This document shows positions 1 to 10,264 of a DNA stretch of 24,042 nt, piece by piece. A program made the position numbers and the translations under genes. Numbering within the stretch: the first letter of the stretch is position 1; each line of letters opens with the position of its first letter. The stretch covers positions 1 to 24,042 of IMG/VR virus record IMGVR_UViG_3300042892_001604; one strand, given 5' to 3'. The notes below the pieces were generated by a model. It was not told where the DNA came from. It saw only the letters and a program-made list of their open reading frames with translations, and ran no database searches. This stretch comes from a virus.

Positions 1-468
1 CACTTTTGTTTCTGCAAGATCTTGTTTGTCTGTATGGAATTCAGCGATTTCTTGTGCTAGAGCTTCTACTACAAACTGCTCAAGTTTAATAAACTTGTCA
101 GCCATTTGTTTTTGATCTTCATGTAAATCTTTTACTTCACTAGCTAGTTGTTGCACAACAAATTCTTTCATTGTTTTTGCATCTTTCTTAGCTTGTACCA
201 TTACTTTAGCCTTAGCTTCAGCAAGGTGATTACGATCTTCTACAAATTGAGCAATTTCCTCTCTTAATTGATCGCCTAACATGCGATCAATTGCTTCAAC
301 CATAACTTGTTTGTCATGCTCGTAGCGTTGAGCAAATTCTTCACGTAGTTGTTGAGTAACTTGTGTACGATTCTCGACGATGCGAGATTCCCAAGCCTGC
401 TCAATTTCTGCTTTTACATCTTCAGAAACCACATTGTTTTCGAACAGAGATTTTAGTGCTTCCAACAT
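1..468 (-). CDS. 22: Prohead core scaffolding protein gp22 (partial, C-terminus off the left edge)
   Basis: Main scaffold of the prohead inner core, on which the major capsid protein assembles and which gp21 later degrades. The first 156 codons are present, from the ATG at 468-466, and the frame stays open to base 1. GAGGAG lies about 6 nt before the ATG. The product is very hydrophilic, rich in Glu/Lys/Gln and almost free of Gly/Pro, so it should be mostly long alpha-helix/coiled coil, as known for T4 gp22 (about 270 aa). It begins MLEALKSLFENNVVSEDVKAE, a typical gp22-family start. It follows gp21 on the same strand, matching the T4 order 20-67-68-21-22-23, so the major capsid gene is expected just beyond the left edge (inference). 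It was too short of a stop to be an ordinary complete ORF here. Confidence 0.88.
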   Translation of the reverse strand, partial: MLEALKSLFENNVVSEDVKAEIEQAWESRIVENRTQVTQQLREEFAQRYEHDKQVMVEAIDRMLGDQLREEIAQFVEDRNHLAEAKAKVMVQAKKDAKTMKEFVVQQLASEVKDLHEDQKQMADKFIKLEQFVVEALAQEIAEFHTDKQDLAETKV

Positions 469-481
469 GTGTTTCTCCTCT

Positions 482-1108
482 TTATTGGAGTCCGCTTATT
501 AATCTTAATAAGCTCTCTTTGAGATATTTCTGCGCCTTAGGATCGCCTTGCACTTCCTTCGCTATACGAAGGCTACTATAACCTCCCCTATTATTCATAA
601 GGTGTTCATAGATTGGTGTAGGATACGCTCCCGGAGCACTTGGTTGAGCTACCACATCTACTGTGATAATCTCAAACTCTGACACTTCACCGGAACCGTC
701 TTCTTTGACGTTGCCGGATCCGCGTGAACTAACTCCTAACTTCACTCCACTTTCTAACATAGCTTTCACTAGTTGTCCCATTGGAGTTGGTAGGATTTTT
801 AATTTTCCGTAACCGTTTGGGCCATCCATCCACATTTCTGTAATCATATGGCTCACACGATCAAGGTTAATTCTTAGGTCATCTGGATGATCTACTTCGC
901 CTAAAACTGAGTATCCACCAGTGATTTGATCGTTCAGGGTCTTGACAGCCCTGCCGATTTCATTAACAGGATAAACACGCTGATTTTGATTCCGGACGCC
1001 GCCTTGAATGCAAATACCTTTCATATAAAGGTTCTTGCCGTCTTGGCCGTCGGACTCAACGACCATTCTCGCTTGATCAAAACTCAGGTTTTCACGAAGA
1101 TAATTCAT
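482..1108 (-). CDS. 21: Prohead core maturation protease gp21
   Basis: Serine protease that matures the T4-type prohead by cutting core and capsid proteins, usually after (L/I)-X-E. The product is 208 aa, near the T4 size. Visible catalytic elements are His74 in the GEVDHPDD motif, the Ser pair 127-128 in GVSSRGSG, and an acidic residue around Asp151 in ITVDVVAQPSAPGA. These give the His/Ser arrangement known for the gp21 (herpesvirus-protease-like) family. The early segment with GVRNQNQRVYP is typical of the family. The start is the ATG at 1108, with only a weak AAGG upstream. It lies 10 nt after the gp67-like stop and 13 nt before gp22, so it is probably co-translated with the late head operon. 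Confidence 0.93.
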   Translation of the reverse strand: MNYLRENLSFDQARMVVESDGQDGKNLYMKGICIQGGVRNQNQRVYPVNEIGRAVKTLNDQITGGYSVLGEVDHPDDLRINLDRVSHMITEMWMDGPNGYGKLKILPTPMGQLVKAMLESGVKLGVSSRGSGNVKEDGSGEVSEFEIITVDVVAQPSAPGAYPTPIYEHLMNNRGGYSSLRIAKEVQGDPKAQKYLKESLLRLISGLQ

Positions 1109-2125: not shown

Positions 2126-2365
2126 TTAGACGGCAGGTGCTTCAGGTGCTTTATACATTTGTTCCACGAATTCAAGTTCTTTTTCTTGTTCAAGGATGTG
2201 TTGTTCACTGGCTTTTCTCAACTCGTTAATTTGTTTTAACGTAAGTCTAGTCTTGCGAGTATCACCTTTGGCCATAGAGGTGCTGTCACGATCGCCGTCA
2301 TAACGTAGATCGTTTGACACGGATTTGATATCATTATCAATATAAAATAATTCTCTAAGTATCAT
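2126..2365 (-). CDS. Small conserved protein between gp20 and gp67 (unknown function)
   Basis: 79-aa protein just after the portal gene; its ATG is 9 nt past the gp20 stop. The sequence begins MILRELFYIDNDIKSV and has a charged centre with GDTRKTRLTLKQINELRKA, then a probable helix rich in Glu/Gln. I recall similar small proteins with an RKTRLTLxQINxLRK core after gp20 in other marine T4-like phages, but know no function. The position suggests a head or core component, perhaps the gp68 counterpart (inference). No Shine-Dalgarno is visible; instead a TATAAATA-like octamer lies only 5 nt upstream. Translation may depend on coupling to gp20 or on a nearly leaderless transcript. Confidence 0.75.
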   Translation of the reverse strand: MILRELFYIDNDIKSVSNDLRYDGDRDSTSMAKGDTRKTRLTLKQINELRKASEQHILEQEKELEFVEQMYKAPEAPAV

Positions 2366-4115: not shown

Positions 4116-6890
4116 TTATGCCTTATATAAATTGCCAGATCCAGCGTTCTTAGTTGCTCTAACCTGTTTATTACTCAAATCTTCTTGTTGAGCTATTAGC
4201 CGACCCATCTGCATATTTAACGAATCTAAACTTTTTACTACATCGTTTAGAGTAGACTCTTTGCCAGATGCACTGCCTGGTGGTTTAGCTGCGGCTGTCG
4301 GTGTTGGTGGATTTTTACTATCAGCTGCAGGTTGACTTTCTGGTTTAGGTACTGCTACATTAGCTGCTTTGGCTTTAATACCAGGACCAAATCCCGGTAA
4401 ATTAATTGCATTAAGATCCATAGCAGGTAATCTAGGAGTTGCTGTTGCAGCTCCAGCTGGTGACTTTATACCTAATGCTTTATCAAAATCAGCATTTAAT
4501 TTGTCGAGATTTCTTTTATTTCCTTCAGCAGCAAATTTTTCTGCAAACTCGCGTTCGCCTACTCGATGCGCTTTACCGCCGTCGTTAATATTTGGATCAA
4601 ACTTACCAGCAGATGCTTTTTTAGCAGCAAGTTCTTCAGTTGACAATTTTTTAGTAACTGCTAATTGTTCTTCTTTCTTAGTTGTTTCGTATGTAATACC
4701 TGCATCAATCTTCTTTTGTATTTCAGTTTGTTTAGCTTGATATTCTTCTTTAAGTTTTACTGCAACTTCGTCAGCCTTCATAGCTTTCTGCACATTAGAA
4801 TATTTTCTATCTTCTACTGCCATGCCGTCAACTAATACTTTTTTACGTGCTTCAAAGTCTTCGCGGAATTTTTTAGTCAATGCTGACATTTCTTGTTCAG
4901 CTGAACTAGATTCGGCACTTTGATTACGCTGTGTTGTAGTACTGCCGCCGCCACTAACTGAACTAAATGACGTAGCAATATCTTTAGAAATAGTGCTTAG
5001 ATCAAATCCATCCATCCCGCCTGTAGGATTGCCGCGCATGTTAGGATTAACTCCCACAGTCTGCATACCTTTTCTAATCGATTCTGCCATGTTTTCTGCA
5101 AATGATTTGTCTTCAGTACCAGGTTTAGGCAAGGAATTTTTAAGTGTGCCTATTACCGCACTTGCACTTTGTCCTTGGATTCCTTTAGCAAGATTCCCTA
5201 ACTGATCTTCTGTGATAACACCTTCTTTGCCGTGCAGCACAGCAAGTGTTCCTGCACCAAAGTCTTCCATAATCTTACCAACAGTACCTAGAGAACCAGT
5301 TGACTTTCCTGGAACAGCTTTACCATCTAGGAAAAAATTAGCTGTACCGGTAACAGCACTAACTGTTAAATCAGTTAATTTTGATAATGTCTCTGTCATT
5401 GCACCAACAACCCCGCCTTGCTCTCGACGTACTTGCGCTGCACTAACTGGATCTCGAGGTTGTCCGTCTGGACCTACTGTAGTTGTAACATCTTTATTTT
5501 TTACTCCCGCAATAGCCTGTGATTCTAACTTAGTTGCCATTCCTTGTTTATAATATAAATCAGCTAGTTCAGCTAGTTTATCTAGAGTCTTTTGAGTAAC
5601 AGCAGTTGCAGCTGCTGTTGCAGCTGCTGATTTAATATCTTGACCGGCTGCTTGTACCGCAACAGCTGCTCTTCCAGATTGTCCTACATCTTCATATTTA
5701 ATATTACCTTTAGCATCCATAACTGGCTTGCCTGTTTTCTCGTCTATTACGGGTCTATTGCCTTTTTGCGCTTGCTTAATGTCATCCATGGTTAGTTTCA
5801 ATGCTTTAGCATAGTCTTCTTGAGTACGTAATAATATGCCATTAGCTGCTGCAACTCTCATCACATTGTCATTCAACGTTTCGGTATTTTCAACAAACTT
5901 TTTTGTAATACCACTAACCGCGCCGCCTGCTTCGCCCATAGTAGCCATTGTTAAAATAGTTCTATCACGGCCATTCTTTACTGCTTCGGCATCTGCTCGC
6001 GCACTTGCTGCTTGCGCTCCAGTTATATCGCCCTTGGCTAATCTTGCGGCAGCTTCTTCAACTGCTCTTGATTGTTTTCCCATTACCGCTGCTTGTGTTC
6101 CAGCAGCTTGAGTCAAATATGTTCCGGAAGCAAATTGTTGCTTAAATAATTCTTCATCGCCTCGTTTTCTAGCTTCCAATGCTAATTTATTATATTCAGA
6201 ACGTAAAACAGCTTCCTTTTCAAGATCTCCATTAGCTAACAATCGTATTTTGGCTGTTACTTGGCCGTCGACTGCTGCCTTCTTCATTTCATCCATCTGA
6301 GCTTCACGACTCTTACCCGTGAGCTTGGCAACGGCATCCATTTGTTCCGCTAGTTCTTTAGCAGCCATATAGGATTTTCTACGGCCTTCTTCTGTATCTT
6401 TATATCCAGCTCGTTGTGTAGATGCTTGTATAGCTAGAATTTCGTTTAGGTCTTTACTAGTGTATCCTATATTTCTAAGTTCGTTAGCGGCACCGCTATC
6501 AAAAAATTCTTTACTTAGTTTTGCAAATGCTTCTGCGCCCCTAGTTACATTTCCTCCTAACCCAGAAATTCTTGCACCATTGTCTTTGATTAGATCAGAA
6601 AATTGGTCTAGGCTTAATCGACTATTGTAAGCCGATTTTGTCATGCCTATTAAGTCACCACTAAAACTAGCCCCTGATGAACTTAGTCGCTGGAACGTTT
6701 CAAGTGAGGTTAGAGCTCCATCGGCAAATGTTTTTGCTAATTTAACAGATTCCTGTCCGACAGATGAAAATCTGTCATTTAACGTCTTCACGTCGAGGTT
6801 AGCAGTTGATCCGCTGCTTGCGTTGGATCTAACCCATTTCATGTATTCCTTAAATTGTTCTTCTGACATTCCTGGTGGTGGACCGGCCAT
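4116..6890 (-). CDS. Tail tape measure protein (gp29 functional counterpart)
   Basis: 924-aa Ala/Lys/Gln-rich, mostly helical protein with long charged coiled-coil stretches. Near residue 550 it has the segment AVLHGKEGVITEDQLGN, matching the (V/I)LHGxExV(I/V) motif common in tape measure proteins. Tape measures set tail length by spanning the tube during assembly, at roughly 0.15 nm per residue. That rule would give a tail near 140 nm, longer than T4's (estimate only). AAGGAAA precedes the ATG. It is unusual in lying beside gp20 and head-to-head with gp26/gp51; in T4 the tape measure gene 29 follows 26-51-27-28 on one strand. No lysozyme or peptidase motif was recognised inside it. Identification rests on composition, length, motif and context. 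Confidence 0.78.
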   Translation of the reverse strand: MAGPPPGMSEEQFKEYMKWVRSNASSGSTANLDVKTLNDRFSSVGQESVKLAKTFADGALTSLETFQRLSSSGASFSGDLIGMTKSAYNSRLSLDQFSDLIKDNGARISGLGGNVTRGAEAFAKLSKEFFDSGAANELRNIGYTSKDLNEILAIQASTQRAGYKDTEEGRRKSYMAAKELAEQMDAVAKLTGKSREAQMDEMKKAAVDGQVTAKIRLLANGDLEKEAVLRSEYNKLALEARKRGDEELFKQQFASGTYLTQAAGTQAAVMGKQSRAVEEAAARLAKGDITGAQAASARADAEAVKNGRDRTILTMATMGEAGGAVSGITKKFVENTETLNDNVMRVAAANGILLRTQEDYAKALKLTMDDIKQAQKGNRPVIDEKTGKPVMDAKGNIKYEDVGQSGRAAVAVQAAGQDIKSAAATAAATAVTQKTLDKLAELADLYYKQGMATKLESQAIAGVKNKDVTTTVGPDGQPRDPVSAAQVRREQGGVVGAMTETLSKLTDLTVSAVTGTANFFLDGKAVPGKSTGSLGTVGKIMEDFGAGTLAVLHGKEGVITEDQLGNLAKGIQGQSASAVIGTLKNSLPKPGTEDKSFAENMAESIRKGMQTVGVNPNMRGNPTGGMDGFDLSTISKDIATSFSSVSGGGSTTTQRNQSAESSSAEQEMSALTKKFREDFEARKKVLVDGMAVEDRKYSNVQKAMKADEVAVKLKEEYQAKQTEIQKKIDAGITYETTKKEEQLAVTKKLSTEELAAKKASAGKFDPNINDGGKAHRVGEREFAEKFAAEGNKRNLDKLNADFDKALGIKSPAGAATATPRLPAMDLNAINLPGFGPGIKAKAANVAVPKPESQPAADSKNPPTPTAAAKPPGSASGKESTLNDVVKSLDSLNMQMGRLIAQQEDLSNKQVRATKNAGSGNLYKA

Positions 6891-6951: not shown

Positions 6952-7791
6952 ATGTCAAATAATCCATTACAAAAGTATTTCAGACAACCAAAATTGTTTG
7001 TATCATTACCTAGCAAAGGGCTGTACTACGATGCTCAATCACTAAATTGCGATGCGTCTAACGTACCTATTTTTGCCATGACAGGCATGGATGAGATTAT
7101 TATGAAAACTCCCGATGCACTATTTAACGGGCAAGCAACTGTGAAACTAATTGAAAGTTGTTGTCCTGTTATTACGGATGCTAGTCAAGTACCTAGTCTT
7201 GATATTGACACACTTTTAATAGCAATTCGTACTGCAACCTATGGTGAAAAAATGACTGTAGGACATACTTGTAAAAATTGTGGCGCAGAAAACGACTTTG
7301 AAGTGGATCTTGCCACGGTAACTGATCATTATGCTAATCTAACATTTAGTAACGTGGTTAAGATTGATGATTATATTACTGTTACACTACGCCCGTTGTC
7401 TTATAAAGAAATTACAGAACAAAGTATTGAAAATTTTAAATTACAAAAAATGCTTTATCAGTTATCTACTGCAGACGATACACTAGAAGAAGGTACTAAG
7501 CAAAAATATATCGATGACATCTATGCTAAACTAGCCGAAGTACAAAGTAATTTAATTATTTCAAGTATTGAATCTATAAGATTACCTGATGTAGTTGTTG
7601 ACAATAGAGAATTTATCACGGAATGGGTAGTTAACACTAATAGAGAACACTATACATTAATTAAAAATAAGTTAGAAGAAAATAAAAATATGTGGGCCAT
7701 GCCAAAACATGATATAAAATGTACAGAGTGTGGCACAGATGACAAGATTGACATTATAATGGATCAATCAAGTTTTTTCGTCAAAGGCTAA
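6952..7791 (+). CDS. 26: gp26-like baseplate hub assembly protein / tail chaperone
   Basis: 279-aa protein of the T4 gp26 type, needed for baseplate hub and tail assembly. The start is the ATG at 6952; the frame is open further upstream but that part lies antisense to the tape measure gene. The N-terminal NPLQKYFRQPKLFVSLPSKG and FAMTGMDEIIMKTPDALFNG are the strongest family signatures. Two CxxC pairs, Cys107/110 (CKNC) and Cys257/260 (CTEC), could form one split zinc site (inference). The gene ends MDQSSFFVKG-stop. The codons for SSFF carry a T TTT TTC heptamer, from which a -1 slip would extend the protein by 77 residues (see the next entry). It is transcribed divergently from the tape measure gene behind an exact late promoter. 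The Shine-Dalgarno is weak. Confidence 0.88.
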   Translation: MSNNPLQKYFRQPKLFVSLPSKGLYYDAQSLNCDASNVPIFAMTGMDEIIMKTPDALFNGQATVKLIESCCPVITDASQVPSLDIDTLLIAIRTATYGEKMTVGHTCKNCGAENDFEVDLATVTDHYANLTFSNVVKIDDYITVTLRPLSYKEITEQSIENFKLQKMLYQLSTADDTLEEGTKQKYIDDIYAKLAEVQSNLIISSIESIRLPDVVVDNREFITEWVVNTNREHYTLIKNKLEENKNMWAMPKHDIKCTECGTDDKIDIIMDQSSFFVKG

Positions 7792-8013: not shown

Positions 8014-9384
8014 TTATAGTGCAATGTTAGGGCTATAATTAACTTTAGGATCTTTAGGTATAGAATCAAACGGATTCGGAACACCAGCTTTTTTCGCTTC
8101 AACGCCTGTGTCTGCAATCATGCTGTCTAATCCAGGCAATAATTTACCATTGTTATCAGTAACTTTAATATTGTTAATATATTTGACGTTGCCCTGAGTA
8201 ATAACTCGGAGAAACCTCGGTACTTTTGAATTACTTGCTTGTTCTGCATCTGCAGCCGCTTTACCTGGATCTTGAGGCCCTCCGCCGGCTGCGGTTGTTG
8301 ATCCTAGTGCATCTCCTGCAGCATTTACTACAGCTGCTCCTGGTCCGTCATATTGCTTGGCCCAATCAGCCGCTTGATCAAAGAACTTTCTTGAAACAGT
8401 GCCTATCATTTGAGTAACTGATCCAATCATGCCATTTAACATGAAATTCTTACCTGCTTCAGTAGTATGAATCCATGTTAGTGCAGCGCCTAAACCAATA
8501 ACTCCATTTAGTTCCATCTGCTTGGCAGACATACCTGATTTTTTTGCCAGCATGGCAGTCGCTTGTCCAAGTATGCCCATTAGGCCACCTGCTACCCTAG
8601 CAGCACCTCCGACAACACCACCGATAATAGGAATAAATGACAGTAATGTTGGCAACGATTTAACTATTTTTAATAGCACGCCTGGCAATAATATTGCAGC
8701 TAATTCTACTTCTAATTGACCCAATGCTTGGTCAGAATCCGTTCTGTAATCTTGCCAAGCTGCTTCTTTAGTAGTAGGCTGGCCATCAAAACTTGCTTGA
8801 TAGTAAATGCCTTTAGGGTATTTCTTGTATTCTGCTTCGCAATATTTAATTCTTTGATAATACGCTGTAACTACCCCCACTACCCCTGCAAGCTGTAGTA
8901 ATCCAATTGTTTCTTTAGGTAATCCGGCAATCATACCAGATGCTGCATATTTGGCTTCTTTACTTGCTGCAGCGGCTTTTTTAATTGCTTCTGTTCGTTC
9001 TTTTCCAAATAATCCTTTACCGAGAGCATTTGTTGCTCCGGGCACAACACTAGACTTGGCATATATTTTTTCAGCACCTGCTACTACATCATCTAGCACT
9101 AACTTCAGCTCTTTGCCGGCTAATCCTGCTTTTTCTAAATCTTTCTGTAAGGTAGCATACACCAACGGGTCAGGACGTCCTTCTTTTCTAGCCACTACTA
9201 GTTCAGCAGCATATTTGTCTGTTAATTTTTCAACCAATGCTTTTCTAGCAACCATGGCTTTAGTACCACCTTGCATAATAATATTAATTGTATTAGTAAG
9301 CCAGCCTGAAGGAATAGGAACTCCAAATACGGATAATTCATTAAGAGTATTAGATTTCTGTGAGATTATTTCATAAACTTTCAT
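8014..9384 (-). CDS. Putative internal/virion protein with capsid-targeting-like N-terminus (unknown function)
   Basis: 456-aa protein I cannot assign to a named family. The N-terminus MKVYEIISQKSNTLNELS resembles the short capsid-targeting peptides of T4 internal proteins. Leu14-Asn15-Glu16 fits the (L/I)-X-E cleavage site of gp21, the protease encoded in this window. Residues 45-145 are charged and helical. There are two strongly hydrophobic stretches, at about 150-176 and 222-280 (Gly/Ile/Leu/Val-rich, including LLSFIPIIGGVVGG), which could insert in a membrane. The C-terminal 90 residues are soluble-looking and end in a Pro/Asn-rich tail. A packaged protein ejected with the DNA is one possibility; a structural tail protein is another. 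No Shine-Dalgarno is present. Its stop lies 1 nt from the stop of the convergent gp51 frame. Confidence 0.72.
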   Translation of the reverse strand: MKVYEIISQKSNTLNELSVFGVPIPSGWLTNTINIIMQGGTKAMVARKALVEKLTDKYAAELVVARKEGRPDPLVYATLQKDLEKAGLAGKELKLVLDDVVAGAEKIYAKSSVVPGATNALGKGLFGKERTEAIKKAAAASKEAKYAASGMIAGLPKETIGLLQLAGVVGVVTAYYQRIKYCEAEYKKYPKGIYYQASFDGQPTTKEAAWQDYRTDSDQALGQLEVELAAILLPGVLLKIVKSLPTLLSFIPIIGGVVGGAARVAGGLMGILGQATAMLAKKSGMSAKQMELNGVIGLGAALTWIHTTEAGKNFMLNGMIGSVTQMIGTVSRKFFDQAADWAKQYDGPGAAVVNAAGDALGSTTAAGGGPQDPGKAAADAEQASNSKVPRFLRVITQGNVKYINNIKVTDNNGKLLPGLDSMIADTGVEAKKAGVPNPFDSIPKDPKVNYSPNIAL

Positions 9385-9391
9385 AGTATCT

Positions 9392-9399
9392 TATTTATT
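9392..9399 (-). promoter_or_regulatory. Late-promoter-like octamer AATAAATA
   Basis: One mismatch to TATAAATA, ending 7 nt before the ATG at 9384. As with the 79-aa gene, transcription from it would begin almost at the start codon, and no Shine-Dalgarno is visible. The tract is a simple TTTA repeat, so chance is possible. Confidence 0.3.
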
Positions 9400-9401
9400 T
9401 A

Positions 9402-9420
9402 ATATGAGCTACGCTCATAT
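9402..9420. repeat. Perfect palindrome, 8-bp stem with 3-nt loop
   Basis: ATATGAGC, loop TAC, GCTCATAT. It lies just upstream of the 456-aa gene and is the first of several short hairpins between 9402 and 9530. It could act as an RNA hairpin on either strand or as a protein-binding site. Confidence 0.7.
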
Positions 9421-9447
9421 GTTCTTCGCTATCGCTCGAACTTTTTT
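9421..9447 (+). terminator. Possible weak rho-independent terminator (plus strand)
   Basis: An imperfect GTTC/GAAC hairpin (9421-9441) is followed directly by six T residues at 9442-9447. The stem is short and interrupted. It could stop plus-strand transcripts that run past gp26/gp51 antisense to the 456-aa gene. Weak evidence. Confidence 0.3.
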
Positions 9448-9457
9448 ACTTATTATT

Positions 9458-9470
9458 AATGCGAAGCATT
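9458..9470. repeat. Short palindrome AATGC-GAA-GCATT
   Basis: A 5-bp perfect stem with a GAA loop in AT-rich noncoding DNA, spaced along with the neighbouring hairpins. Function unknown. Confidence 0.5.
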
Positions 9471-9483
9471 TAAATATTATCTA

Positions 9484-9823
9484 GATTGTTCAGTCACACT
9501 TTGCCCTTGCGGGCAAAGAAAATTGAACATTATCTGAGTTGCACAATCCACTTAGCGTTACAGCATTGCAGAGGCGGTCATCCGGTACCTCGAGCTGTGT
9601 CTTTATATGACGGCGGTCTACTAACATACGCTAACATGCTAGCAAACGTGGGCTATTAACCCTCTTTTTGCCTTTAAATTCCTTAAAACAATCAAACCGC
9701 GGCAGCTTTGCGATCCTCGTCCTGTAAAGGATAGTGATTGAGTGCTCTTAACGGCTAGAGACTTTCCTCCCTGTGATCCGAGATCCAGGTTTCCGAGCGC
9801 ACGATGTTAGCCTGCGCTAGCTT
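9484..9823 (-). ncRNA. Candidate structured noncoding RNA (class unknown; strand inferred)
   Basis: About 340 nt without a plausible ORF, immediately after the GIY-YIG stop codon. By hand count 138 of 280 bases (49%) in 9541-9820 are G or C, against visibly AT-rich sequence on its left. Helices seen: 9796-9801 with 9813-9818; 9770-9789 (CCTG and GATC double stem with a 3-nt loop); 9720-9731; 9689-9694 with 9735-9740 enclosing it; 9630-9643; a nested three-part stem at 9560-9598; and a long hairpin at 9487-9529 containing CTTTGCCC-GCAA-GGGCAAAG with a GNRA loop on the minus strand. The box GGAGGAAAGTC (minus strand, 9770-9760) matches the J3/4-P4 box of bacterial RNase P RNA and follows a P3-like hairpin. 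The partner strand GGCTTA is absent, so I do not call RNase P. The minus strand is preferred for the GNRA loop and this box. Confidence 0.45.
9487..9529 (-). repeat. Nested hairpin with 8-bp stem and GCAA tetraloop
   Basis: Inner stem 9499-9506 with 9511-9518 is perfect (8 bp) and shows a GCAA tetraloop on the minus strand. Outer arms TGTTCA (9487-9492) and TGAACA (9524-9529) also pair. It may be the 3' end of the candidate RNA. No U-tract follows on either strand, so it is not a standard terminator. Confidence 0.65.
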
Positions 9824-10264
9824 TTATCCGTTTAACTGTTTGCCTTTGATGTGATTGCCGTGTACACGGACAGAGATTTGTCCGTTGTAGTAGTCATCTG
9901 ATTCTAATACTCGCCTTGAGAATTGCTCTCTTGCCTCGATATAACTACATTCAGCCTTTGATGTGCAGTAGTAAAGTATTTCTCTTGTGAAATTTTCTGC
10001 GCCTAGTTCTTGTACGTCTTTGTTTAATTGGTCGTTTGAGCCATAGTATTCCGGCCAGTCAGAATCAATTTTAGAACGAATCTTCTTTTTCTTCTTAGTG
10101 CCGTTTTTAAGTTTTATTGTTTTATAAGTTGTTTTAGAAAATTTTGCTAATTTCTTGCCTATATATTTGCGACCAGTGATGTTATTAGTAATGCAATAGA
10201 CGAACCCGATATATTCTTCGGAAATAGTTTCGACTAATGATTGTTGATAATACCATGACATCAA
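9824..10264 (-). CDS. SegE-like GIY-YIG endonuclease
   Basis: About 145-aa nuclease-family protein. The GIY-YIG elements are GFVYCI at 20-25 and KYIGKK at 33-38, followed by a basic Lys-rich stretch, then SDWPEYYGSN, a conserved Glu in SYIEAREQF and a late Asn in YYNGQ. This is the order seen in SegE-type GIY-YIG proteins of T4-like phages, which are homing-type or DNA-processing nucleases. No separate DNA-binding domain is visible, so the target is unknown. The frame opens with TTG at 10264 and then ATG at 10261; the ATG is the likelier start and would shorten the product by one residue. There is no clear Shine-Dalgarno. It lies 4 nt after the 81-aa gene and is followed directly by the candidate structured RNA. 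Confidence 0.82.
   Translation of the reverse strand: MMSWYYQQSLVETISEEYIGFVYCITNNITGRKYIGKKLAKFSKTTYKTIKLKNGTKKKKKIRSKIDSDWPEYYGSNDQLNKDVQELGAENFTREILYYCTSKAECSYIEAREQFSRRVLESDDYYNGQISVRVHGNHIKGKQLNG

Follow-up and report, generated by a model that had tools for sequence, protein, structure and literature searches.

Introduction

The closest described systems are the internal proteins (IPs) of phage T4, which are loaded into the head by means of a capsid targeting sequence (CTS). T4 IP propeptides are 10-19 residues long and are cleaved after L/I-x-E, and in the CTS targeting depends mainly on residues 4 and 7 and processing on residues 8 and 10 (PMC9026906). According to the same source, substrates of the gp21 protease have their L/I-x-E within an N-terminal propeptide range of 7-65 residues. 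IPI, which has 95 residues, is found as a mature form of 76 residues (PMC3012670). In addition, gp47 of the giant Salmonella phage SPN3US is a cleaved head protein with a predicted transmembrane domain, the ejection of which was inferred by the authors (PMC5694885). Our literature searches turned up papers on T4, SPN3US and other phages and no paper on a capsid targeting sequence in metagenomic jumbo phages, and the available parts of PMC5694885, PMC3012670, PMC7697877, PMC9026906 and PMC2864571 do not report the tag described here in such phages.

Results

The window, by which we mean the whole stretch of DNA that was analysed, is an IMG/VR virus record of 24,042 bases, and its source is an uncultivated giant T4-like phage. 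The portal is of the T4 type by PF07230, and the portal and the protease are closest to those of jumbo phages, e.g. Phosso, PA5oct, Atu_ph07 and GAP32, with identities to Phosso of 53.5% and 59.7%, respectively. The open reading frame (ORF) that the initial annotation had reported at 8014-9384 is present on the minus strand, begins with ATG and encodes 456 amino acids (aa) with the N-terminus MKVYEIISQKSNTLNELSVF (Table 1). The statement that the protein belongs to no known family also held at useful E-values: searches of Pfam and PHROGs gave nothing usable, a PDB sequence search returned two rows at chance level, and tblastn against cultured phages found no match to the protein or to two of its relatives. 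The gp22-type scaffold is complete in the near-identical contig G005 and is, by analogy with T4, the likely docking partner of the tag.

Table 1. Features of the window; residue numbers refer to the 456-aa protein
Feature	Position	Strand	Basis
Gene of the finding, 456-aa protein with T4-type targeting tag, gp26-side family	8014..9384	-	ORF
Predicted propeptide MKVYEIISQKSNTLNE, residues 1-16, T4-type capsid-targeting peptide	9337..9384	-	N-terminal profile, unrelated tagged proteins, likeness to T4 IPII/IPIII
Predicted gp21 cleavage motif L14-N15-E16, cut after Glu16	9337..9345	-	L/I-x-E rule; inferred
Predicted mature protein, residues 17-456, mostly helical	8017..9336	-	AlphaFold, mean pLDDT 67.6
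Weak hydrophobic segment, residues 158-176	8857..8913	-	KD19 1.27
Hydrophobic region, residues 220-265, peak 236-254	8590..8727	-	KD19 1.68-1.84; low model confidence at 246-269
C-terminal small domain with two short strands, residues ~385-456, best-predicted part	8017..8232	-	pLDDT and conserved family motifs
T4-type late promoter-like octamer AATAAATA, one mismatch to TATAAATA	9392..9399	-	
Conserved structured RNA just upstream; 5' part 9822-9686 is Rfam RF01718 Polynucleobacter-1	9470..9822	-	113.7 bits
gp26-type baseplate hub gene, syntenic neighbour	6952..7791	+	PF12322, E 1.1e-18; start by eye
gp21-type prohead protease, predicted cutter of the propeptide	482..1108	-	PF03420 Peptidase_S77, E 8.3e-27
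gp22-type scaffold, partial	1..468	-	Weak PHROG head-scaffolding match, E 0.0052

Adjoining the portal, the window encodes a 924-aa protein (4116-6890, minus strand) without a family match in Pfam or PHROGs, perhaps a tape measure, and mass spectrometry marks its positional counterpart in PA5oct, gp335, as structural. A tape-measure role for the 456-aa protein was dropped because the 924-aa ORF is, by eye, the likelier candidate and because of its structural counterpart in PA5oct. Directly after the portal lies a 79-aa ORF without the tag (2126-2365, minus strand); in PA5oct the matching position holds gp333, which is structural and tagged.

When viral contigs were scanned with the window protein, no relative could be confirmed, and relatives were therefore gathered through the neighbours gp26 and portal. 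In most loci the ORF just past gp26, on the opposite strand, starts with nearly the same nine residues. Iterated HMM profile searches yielded 60 members at first and 125 after loci had been added (124 were listed in the final round, the stored family set being 125), and the window protein thus belongs to a previously unnamed family. Its nearest relative is 53% identical to it, the other 50 of the 52 members first aligned share 13-27%, and most family bodies are ~20% identical to the window protein.

Gp26 was found in 264 of 298 loci searched; 48 loci were too short beyond gp26, and removal of duplicates gave 132 distinct loci, in which the position beyond gp26 is held by a family member in 112, by another tagged ORF in 10 and by neither in 10. 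The family gene lies on the other side of gp26, with its strand relative to gp26 kept, in L138 (7105-8160), L387 (4735-5787) and L346 (4925-5908); the first two belong to the ten loci with neither and have the gene flanked by gp26 and the counterpart of the 924-aa ORF, and in L346, which is outside that count, only the adjacency to gp26 is seen. Several of the remaining eight loci begin tag-like by eye and were left out of the counts. A profile search of the whole Phosso record did not find the family, and by position no such gene adjoins gp26 in PA5oct and Atu_ph07. The preference for this place, the adjacency to gp26 even in the three loci in which the gene has moved, and the baseplate genes nearby would suit a component of the tail or of the baseplate hub. 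We consider this highly improbable, given that a tag with an LxE motif and its recurrence on unrelated proteins (see below) indicate the head and that position is a weak guide, since the far side holds an RNA and recombination genes.

Conservation within the family is concentrated at the N-terminus, with a mean relative entropy of 2.44 bits in the first ten alignment columns versus -0.35 to 1.50 in other ten-column blocks. The pattern M[KRN][VILAF]x[EQDK][IVLF][IVLTF] is matched by 100 of 111 distinct N-termini, and 82 of these have Glu9; the other 11 fail to match in part because of cut ORFs or other starts, three of them holding MKVY downstream. Among the dereplicated matching members (n=100; 106 in all) K2 occurs in 91, Y4 in 41, I6 in 81, I7 in 66 and E9 in 81. 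The apparent conservation of the tag is inflated because starts were picked by looking for it and because the pattern itself constrains residues 2, 3, 5, 6 and 7, leaving 4, 8 and 9 free. The N-terminus of T4 IPII and IPIII is MKTYQEFIAE, and the family tag is one residue shorter. With a one-residue shift the tag profile scores 12.4 against IPII versus -7.3 unshifted, and it scores 2.3 against IPI. CTS residues 4, 7, 8 and 10 of T4 then align with positions 4, 6, 7 and 9 of the family tag; in the window protein Y4, I6 and I7 align with T4 when one residue is skipped, and Gln stands at the equivalent of T4 residue 10. Only the 41 members counted above have Tyr at position 4, which serves targeting in T4.

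The usual site of the family, residues 7-9, is lost in the window protein (ISQ), and the LNE ending at residue 16 lies within the propeptide range of 7-65 residues and follows the L/I-x-E rule. Taken alone, LNE is weak evidence, since [LIF]xE occurs in ~15% of 26-residue stretches elsewhere in family proteins. Comparison with relatives lifts it above chance: among the 19 dereplicated members without Glu9, 13 have [LIFVM]xE at residues 8-20, the one of the window protein being LNE16, versus a background of 11.3% of 13-residue stretches elsewhere (binomial P ~7e-9 if members were independent, a value that ignores relatedness, some of the 19 being near copies). The other six have no replacement site. 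An additional site within residues 8-20 exists in 26 of the 81 members with Glu9, so that it is not always evident which one is used. The protein could be targeted and be cut at some other position or stay uncut, with the tag still docking and the propeptide either ending at another Glu or staying in place; in T4, Asp at CTS residue 10 inhibits processing and permits targeting (PMC9026906). Given that LNE followed by Leu obeys the rule and that members without Glu9 keep a site above background, we regard this as unlikely.

The same kind of phage has both a gp21-type protease and an LxE in its capsid protein. The capsid protein of G005 has LAE at residues 39-41, followed by SATAGATSAGN, and LxE just before the mature N-terminus is kept in 31 of 32 capsid-protein ORFs of the lineage, G005 included. 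It ends at residue 41 in 28 of the 32; in L110, L158 and Phosso it is in the same place under longer N-termini, and L048 is cut short. We infer that the capsid protein is cut at this LxE.

The tag also occurs outside the family. When the tag profile was run over ORF starts, G001 yielded 7 hits, G003 6, G002 (first 320 of 364.6 kb) 8 and Phosso 2, versus 0.25, 0.40, 0.40 and 0.85 expected from shuffled N-termini; in each of the first three, which are related genomes, one hit is the family member, and the Phosso count is not above background. Over all loci, 29 tagged non-family ORFs among 15,227 distinct ORFs fall into 16 clusters, a number that overstates the unrelated families, since the 10 ORFs of the two largest clusters may be remotely related or occupy corresponding positions. 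Among the tagged proteins are a DUF6321 protein and one of 752 aa that matches GNAT weakly. A tagged 607-aa protein (L244:15007-16830) combines an N-terminal phosphatase/kinase-like region with a GH19 endolysin-like region and is possibly a packaged cell-wall enzyme. In PA5oct, hits scoring at least 12 are gp333, gp246, gp213 and gp075. Of these, gp333 (21.1) and gp246 (15.1) are recorded as structural proteins by ESI-MS/MS, a mark that makes a weak test because it is also borne by enzymes such as ribonucleotide reductase and has no base rate behind it. Gp213 and gp075 bear no mass-spectrometry mark, and neither do gp082, gp080 and gp261, weaker rows that match only in shifted register.

The claim of a T4-type capsid-targeting peptide with a gp21-type site has gained from four comparisons: the N-terminus is conserved over divergent bodies and recurs on unrelated proteins, an LxE is maintained after loss of the usual site, and the capsid protein of the same kind of phage has an LxE. 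Capsid targeting of the family is, as a prediction from sequence, well supported.

A different peptide recurs at C-termini. The gp22 of the near-identical contig (L206:11475-12569) ends in a DIRRLAGL-like peptide, an observation that extends to L171, L187, L240 and L224, and such ends occur on 1-3 other proteins per genome in G001, G002, G003 and Phosso (2-4 hits per genome with gp22 included, versus 0.15-0.20 expected). Two proteins of L250 with gp22-like ends (334 and 636 aa) also carry the N-terminal tag. The C-terminal peptide is possibly a second address label.

The initial annotation had called the protein late, and the promoter data agree. Within 60 nt upstream, TATAAATA with at most one mismatch is found in 87 of 105 family members versus 13.4% of shuffled sequences; the same promoter precedes 20%, 20% and 24% of 332, 344 and 287 genes with products of 100 aa or more in three related genomes and only 10 of the 29 tagged non-family ORFs.

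The structured RNA further upstream is ~350 nt long and is present in 82 of 88 upstream regions. The RF01718 match covers only the 5' 137 nt; conservation and covariation extend ~200 nt past it. It contains a stretch like GAGGAAAG, a motif of RNase P; an identity as RNase P was rejected, as RF01718 was the sole Rfam family to match at E 1 or better. Across 40 sequences, 25 of 48 predicted pairs are changed on both sides, 17 of them past the RF01718 match, a count made with no shuffle control. Polynucleobacter-1 is tabulated for Burkholderiales and for fresh water/estuary (PMC2864571). In the present case the element belongs to a phage; a 24-base pattern taken out of the RNA matched one contig among 84,980 species genomes, a 4.5-kb contig in a Bacteroidetes bin. 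Two small hairpins, GTTCGAGCG..AGCGAAGAAC and a ATATGAGCGTAGCTCATAT-type palindrome, lie at 9402-9445 (minus strand); by eye both precede the late promoter in many relatives, and they possibly terminate this RNA. Upstream of the RNA, the ORF at 9824-10264 (minus strand) has, by eye, a GIY-YIG-like N-terminus (GFVYCITN...GRKYIGKK), and L138 and L387 have similar ORFs nearby.

Two hydrophobic segments and an action on the host membrane after ejection had been proposed for the protein. By the 19-residue Kyte-Doolittle maximum, with the usual cut-off of 1.6, the segment at 222-280 is clear (1.84 at 236-254), and the one at 150-176 falls below the cut-off (1.27 at 158-176). A segment above 1.6 is present in 63% of 106 family members versus 14%, 10% and 10% of size-matched ORFs from three related genomes (98, 109 and 89 ORFs), and the median best segment is 1.72 in the family versus 1.06-1.16 in these ORFs. 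The strongest segment lies at window-protein residues 220-299 in 40 of 52 members, at 20-39 in 8 and at 320-339 in 4. The proposed membrane action is plausible and supported only in part: the strong segment favours it, and the faint first segment, the 37% of the family that have no segment above 1.6 and the lack of a reliable fold match (see below) weaken it. Hydrophobic segments would also suit a late membrane protein outside the virion, acting e.g. in envelope change or phage exclusion, with an N-terminus conserved for another cause; this would leave the same N-terminus on unrelated proteins and the upkeep of LxE unexplained, and we think it very unlikely. Alternatively, the protein may be packaged and cleaved and yet not be membrane-active, serving in the head as a core or DNA-associated protein that oligomerises there through its hydrophobic helices. 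The tag evidence fits such a protein equally, most members carry a positive net charge (median +9, range -2 to +20), and the members without a strong segment are in keeping with it; the far lower hydrophobicity of size-matched ORFs argues against it. We hold this last alternative to be only a little short of an even chance.

Structure prediction had been proposed as a check. Two AlphaFold models (pLDDT 67.6 and 69.0) consist mostly of helices, with part of the hydrophobic region at low confidence, and the C-terminal part is better predicted (in the model of pLDDT 67.6, block means of 82-96 over residues 381-450 and 57 in the last six residues). A reliable fold match was not obtained: Foldseek with the two models gave none at E 0.001 or better. 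The VIA structure rows of one run reach a best Z of 7.2 and include ABC transporters, ClyA, 14-3-3 proteins and, at 5.9, a chain of the PhiM1 ejectosome; they were set aside because Z at this level is common for helical proteins. The other run stays lower, with a best Z of 4.1.

Discussion

Comparison with relatives establishes the gene with its family, the common N-terminal peptide, the upkeep of L/I-x-E, the presence of a late promoter and of the protease, and the LxE of the capsid protein. Combining these data, we suggest that the gene product is a late, tagged, head-internal protein, and we put the probability of this reading as a whole at roughly 0.7. In this model, (i) the first 16 residues would form a capsid-targeting propeptide of the T4 internal-protein type that docks on the prohead scaffold core, (ii) the phage gp21 protease would cut after Glu16, and (iii) the mature chain of ~440 residues would remain with the packaged DNA and be ejected together with it. 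As the tag resembles the head-loading label of T4, the protein is probably packaged alongside the DNA and passed into the host, and packaging, cutting at Glu16 and ejection, taken jointly, appear probable to us. The step at the membrane, in which the hydrophobic helices (~220-283) would most likely become associated with the inner membrane of the host as the genome enters, is speculative, and we judge the odds to be somewhat against it.

On the scale of the lineage, one N-terminal peptide may serve as an address label that loads many unrelated proteins, with possible enzymes (GH19 endolysin-like, weakly GNAT-like) among them, and the nearly universal, fast-evolving hydrophobic protein beside gp26 may form or line the genome path through the inner membrane; this wider scheme is tentative and, in our view, doubtful. 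We know of no well-established head protein of T4-type phages for lining the genome path across the inner membrane. The tag provides a sequence rule to spot packaged cargo in giant T4-like phages that are known only from metagenomes and in which most genes are unnamed, and one conserved protein is flagged as a candidate helper of giant genomes in crossing the host envelope.

The SPN3US gp47 protein is likened to the window protein by description and differs in having a propeptide of ~79-111 residues and in belonging to a phiKZ-related phage. PA5oct gp333 and gp246 have the same N-terminal tag and are structural proteins by ESI-MS/MS; they differ in size (73 and 104 aa) and in their bodies, and the PA5oct record is silent on cleavage. 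The likeness to T4 IPI, IPII and IPIII includes the N-terminal MK-x-x-acidic-hydrophobic pair-x-E peptide, a site that either closes the tag or lies beyond it, as in IPI, a peptide common to otherwise unrelated proteins, and a gp21-type protease in the same phage. With one skip, F7-I8 of T4 correspond to I6-I7 of the family and E10 to E9, and IPI offers a parallel to the window protein in that it has no site at residue 10 and has ITE at 17-19. The window protein differs from the T4 IPs in its length (456 aa versus 95, 100 and 193), its hydrophobicity and its conserved gene position, and no sequence relation was found between the T4 internal proteins and the family body. By analogy, the protein most likely works like the T4 internal proteins.
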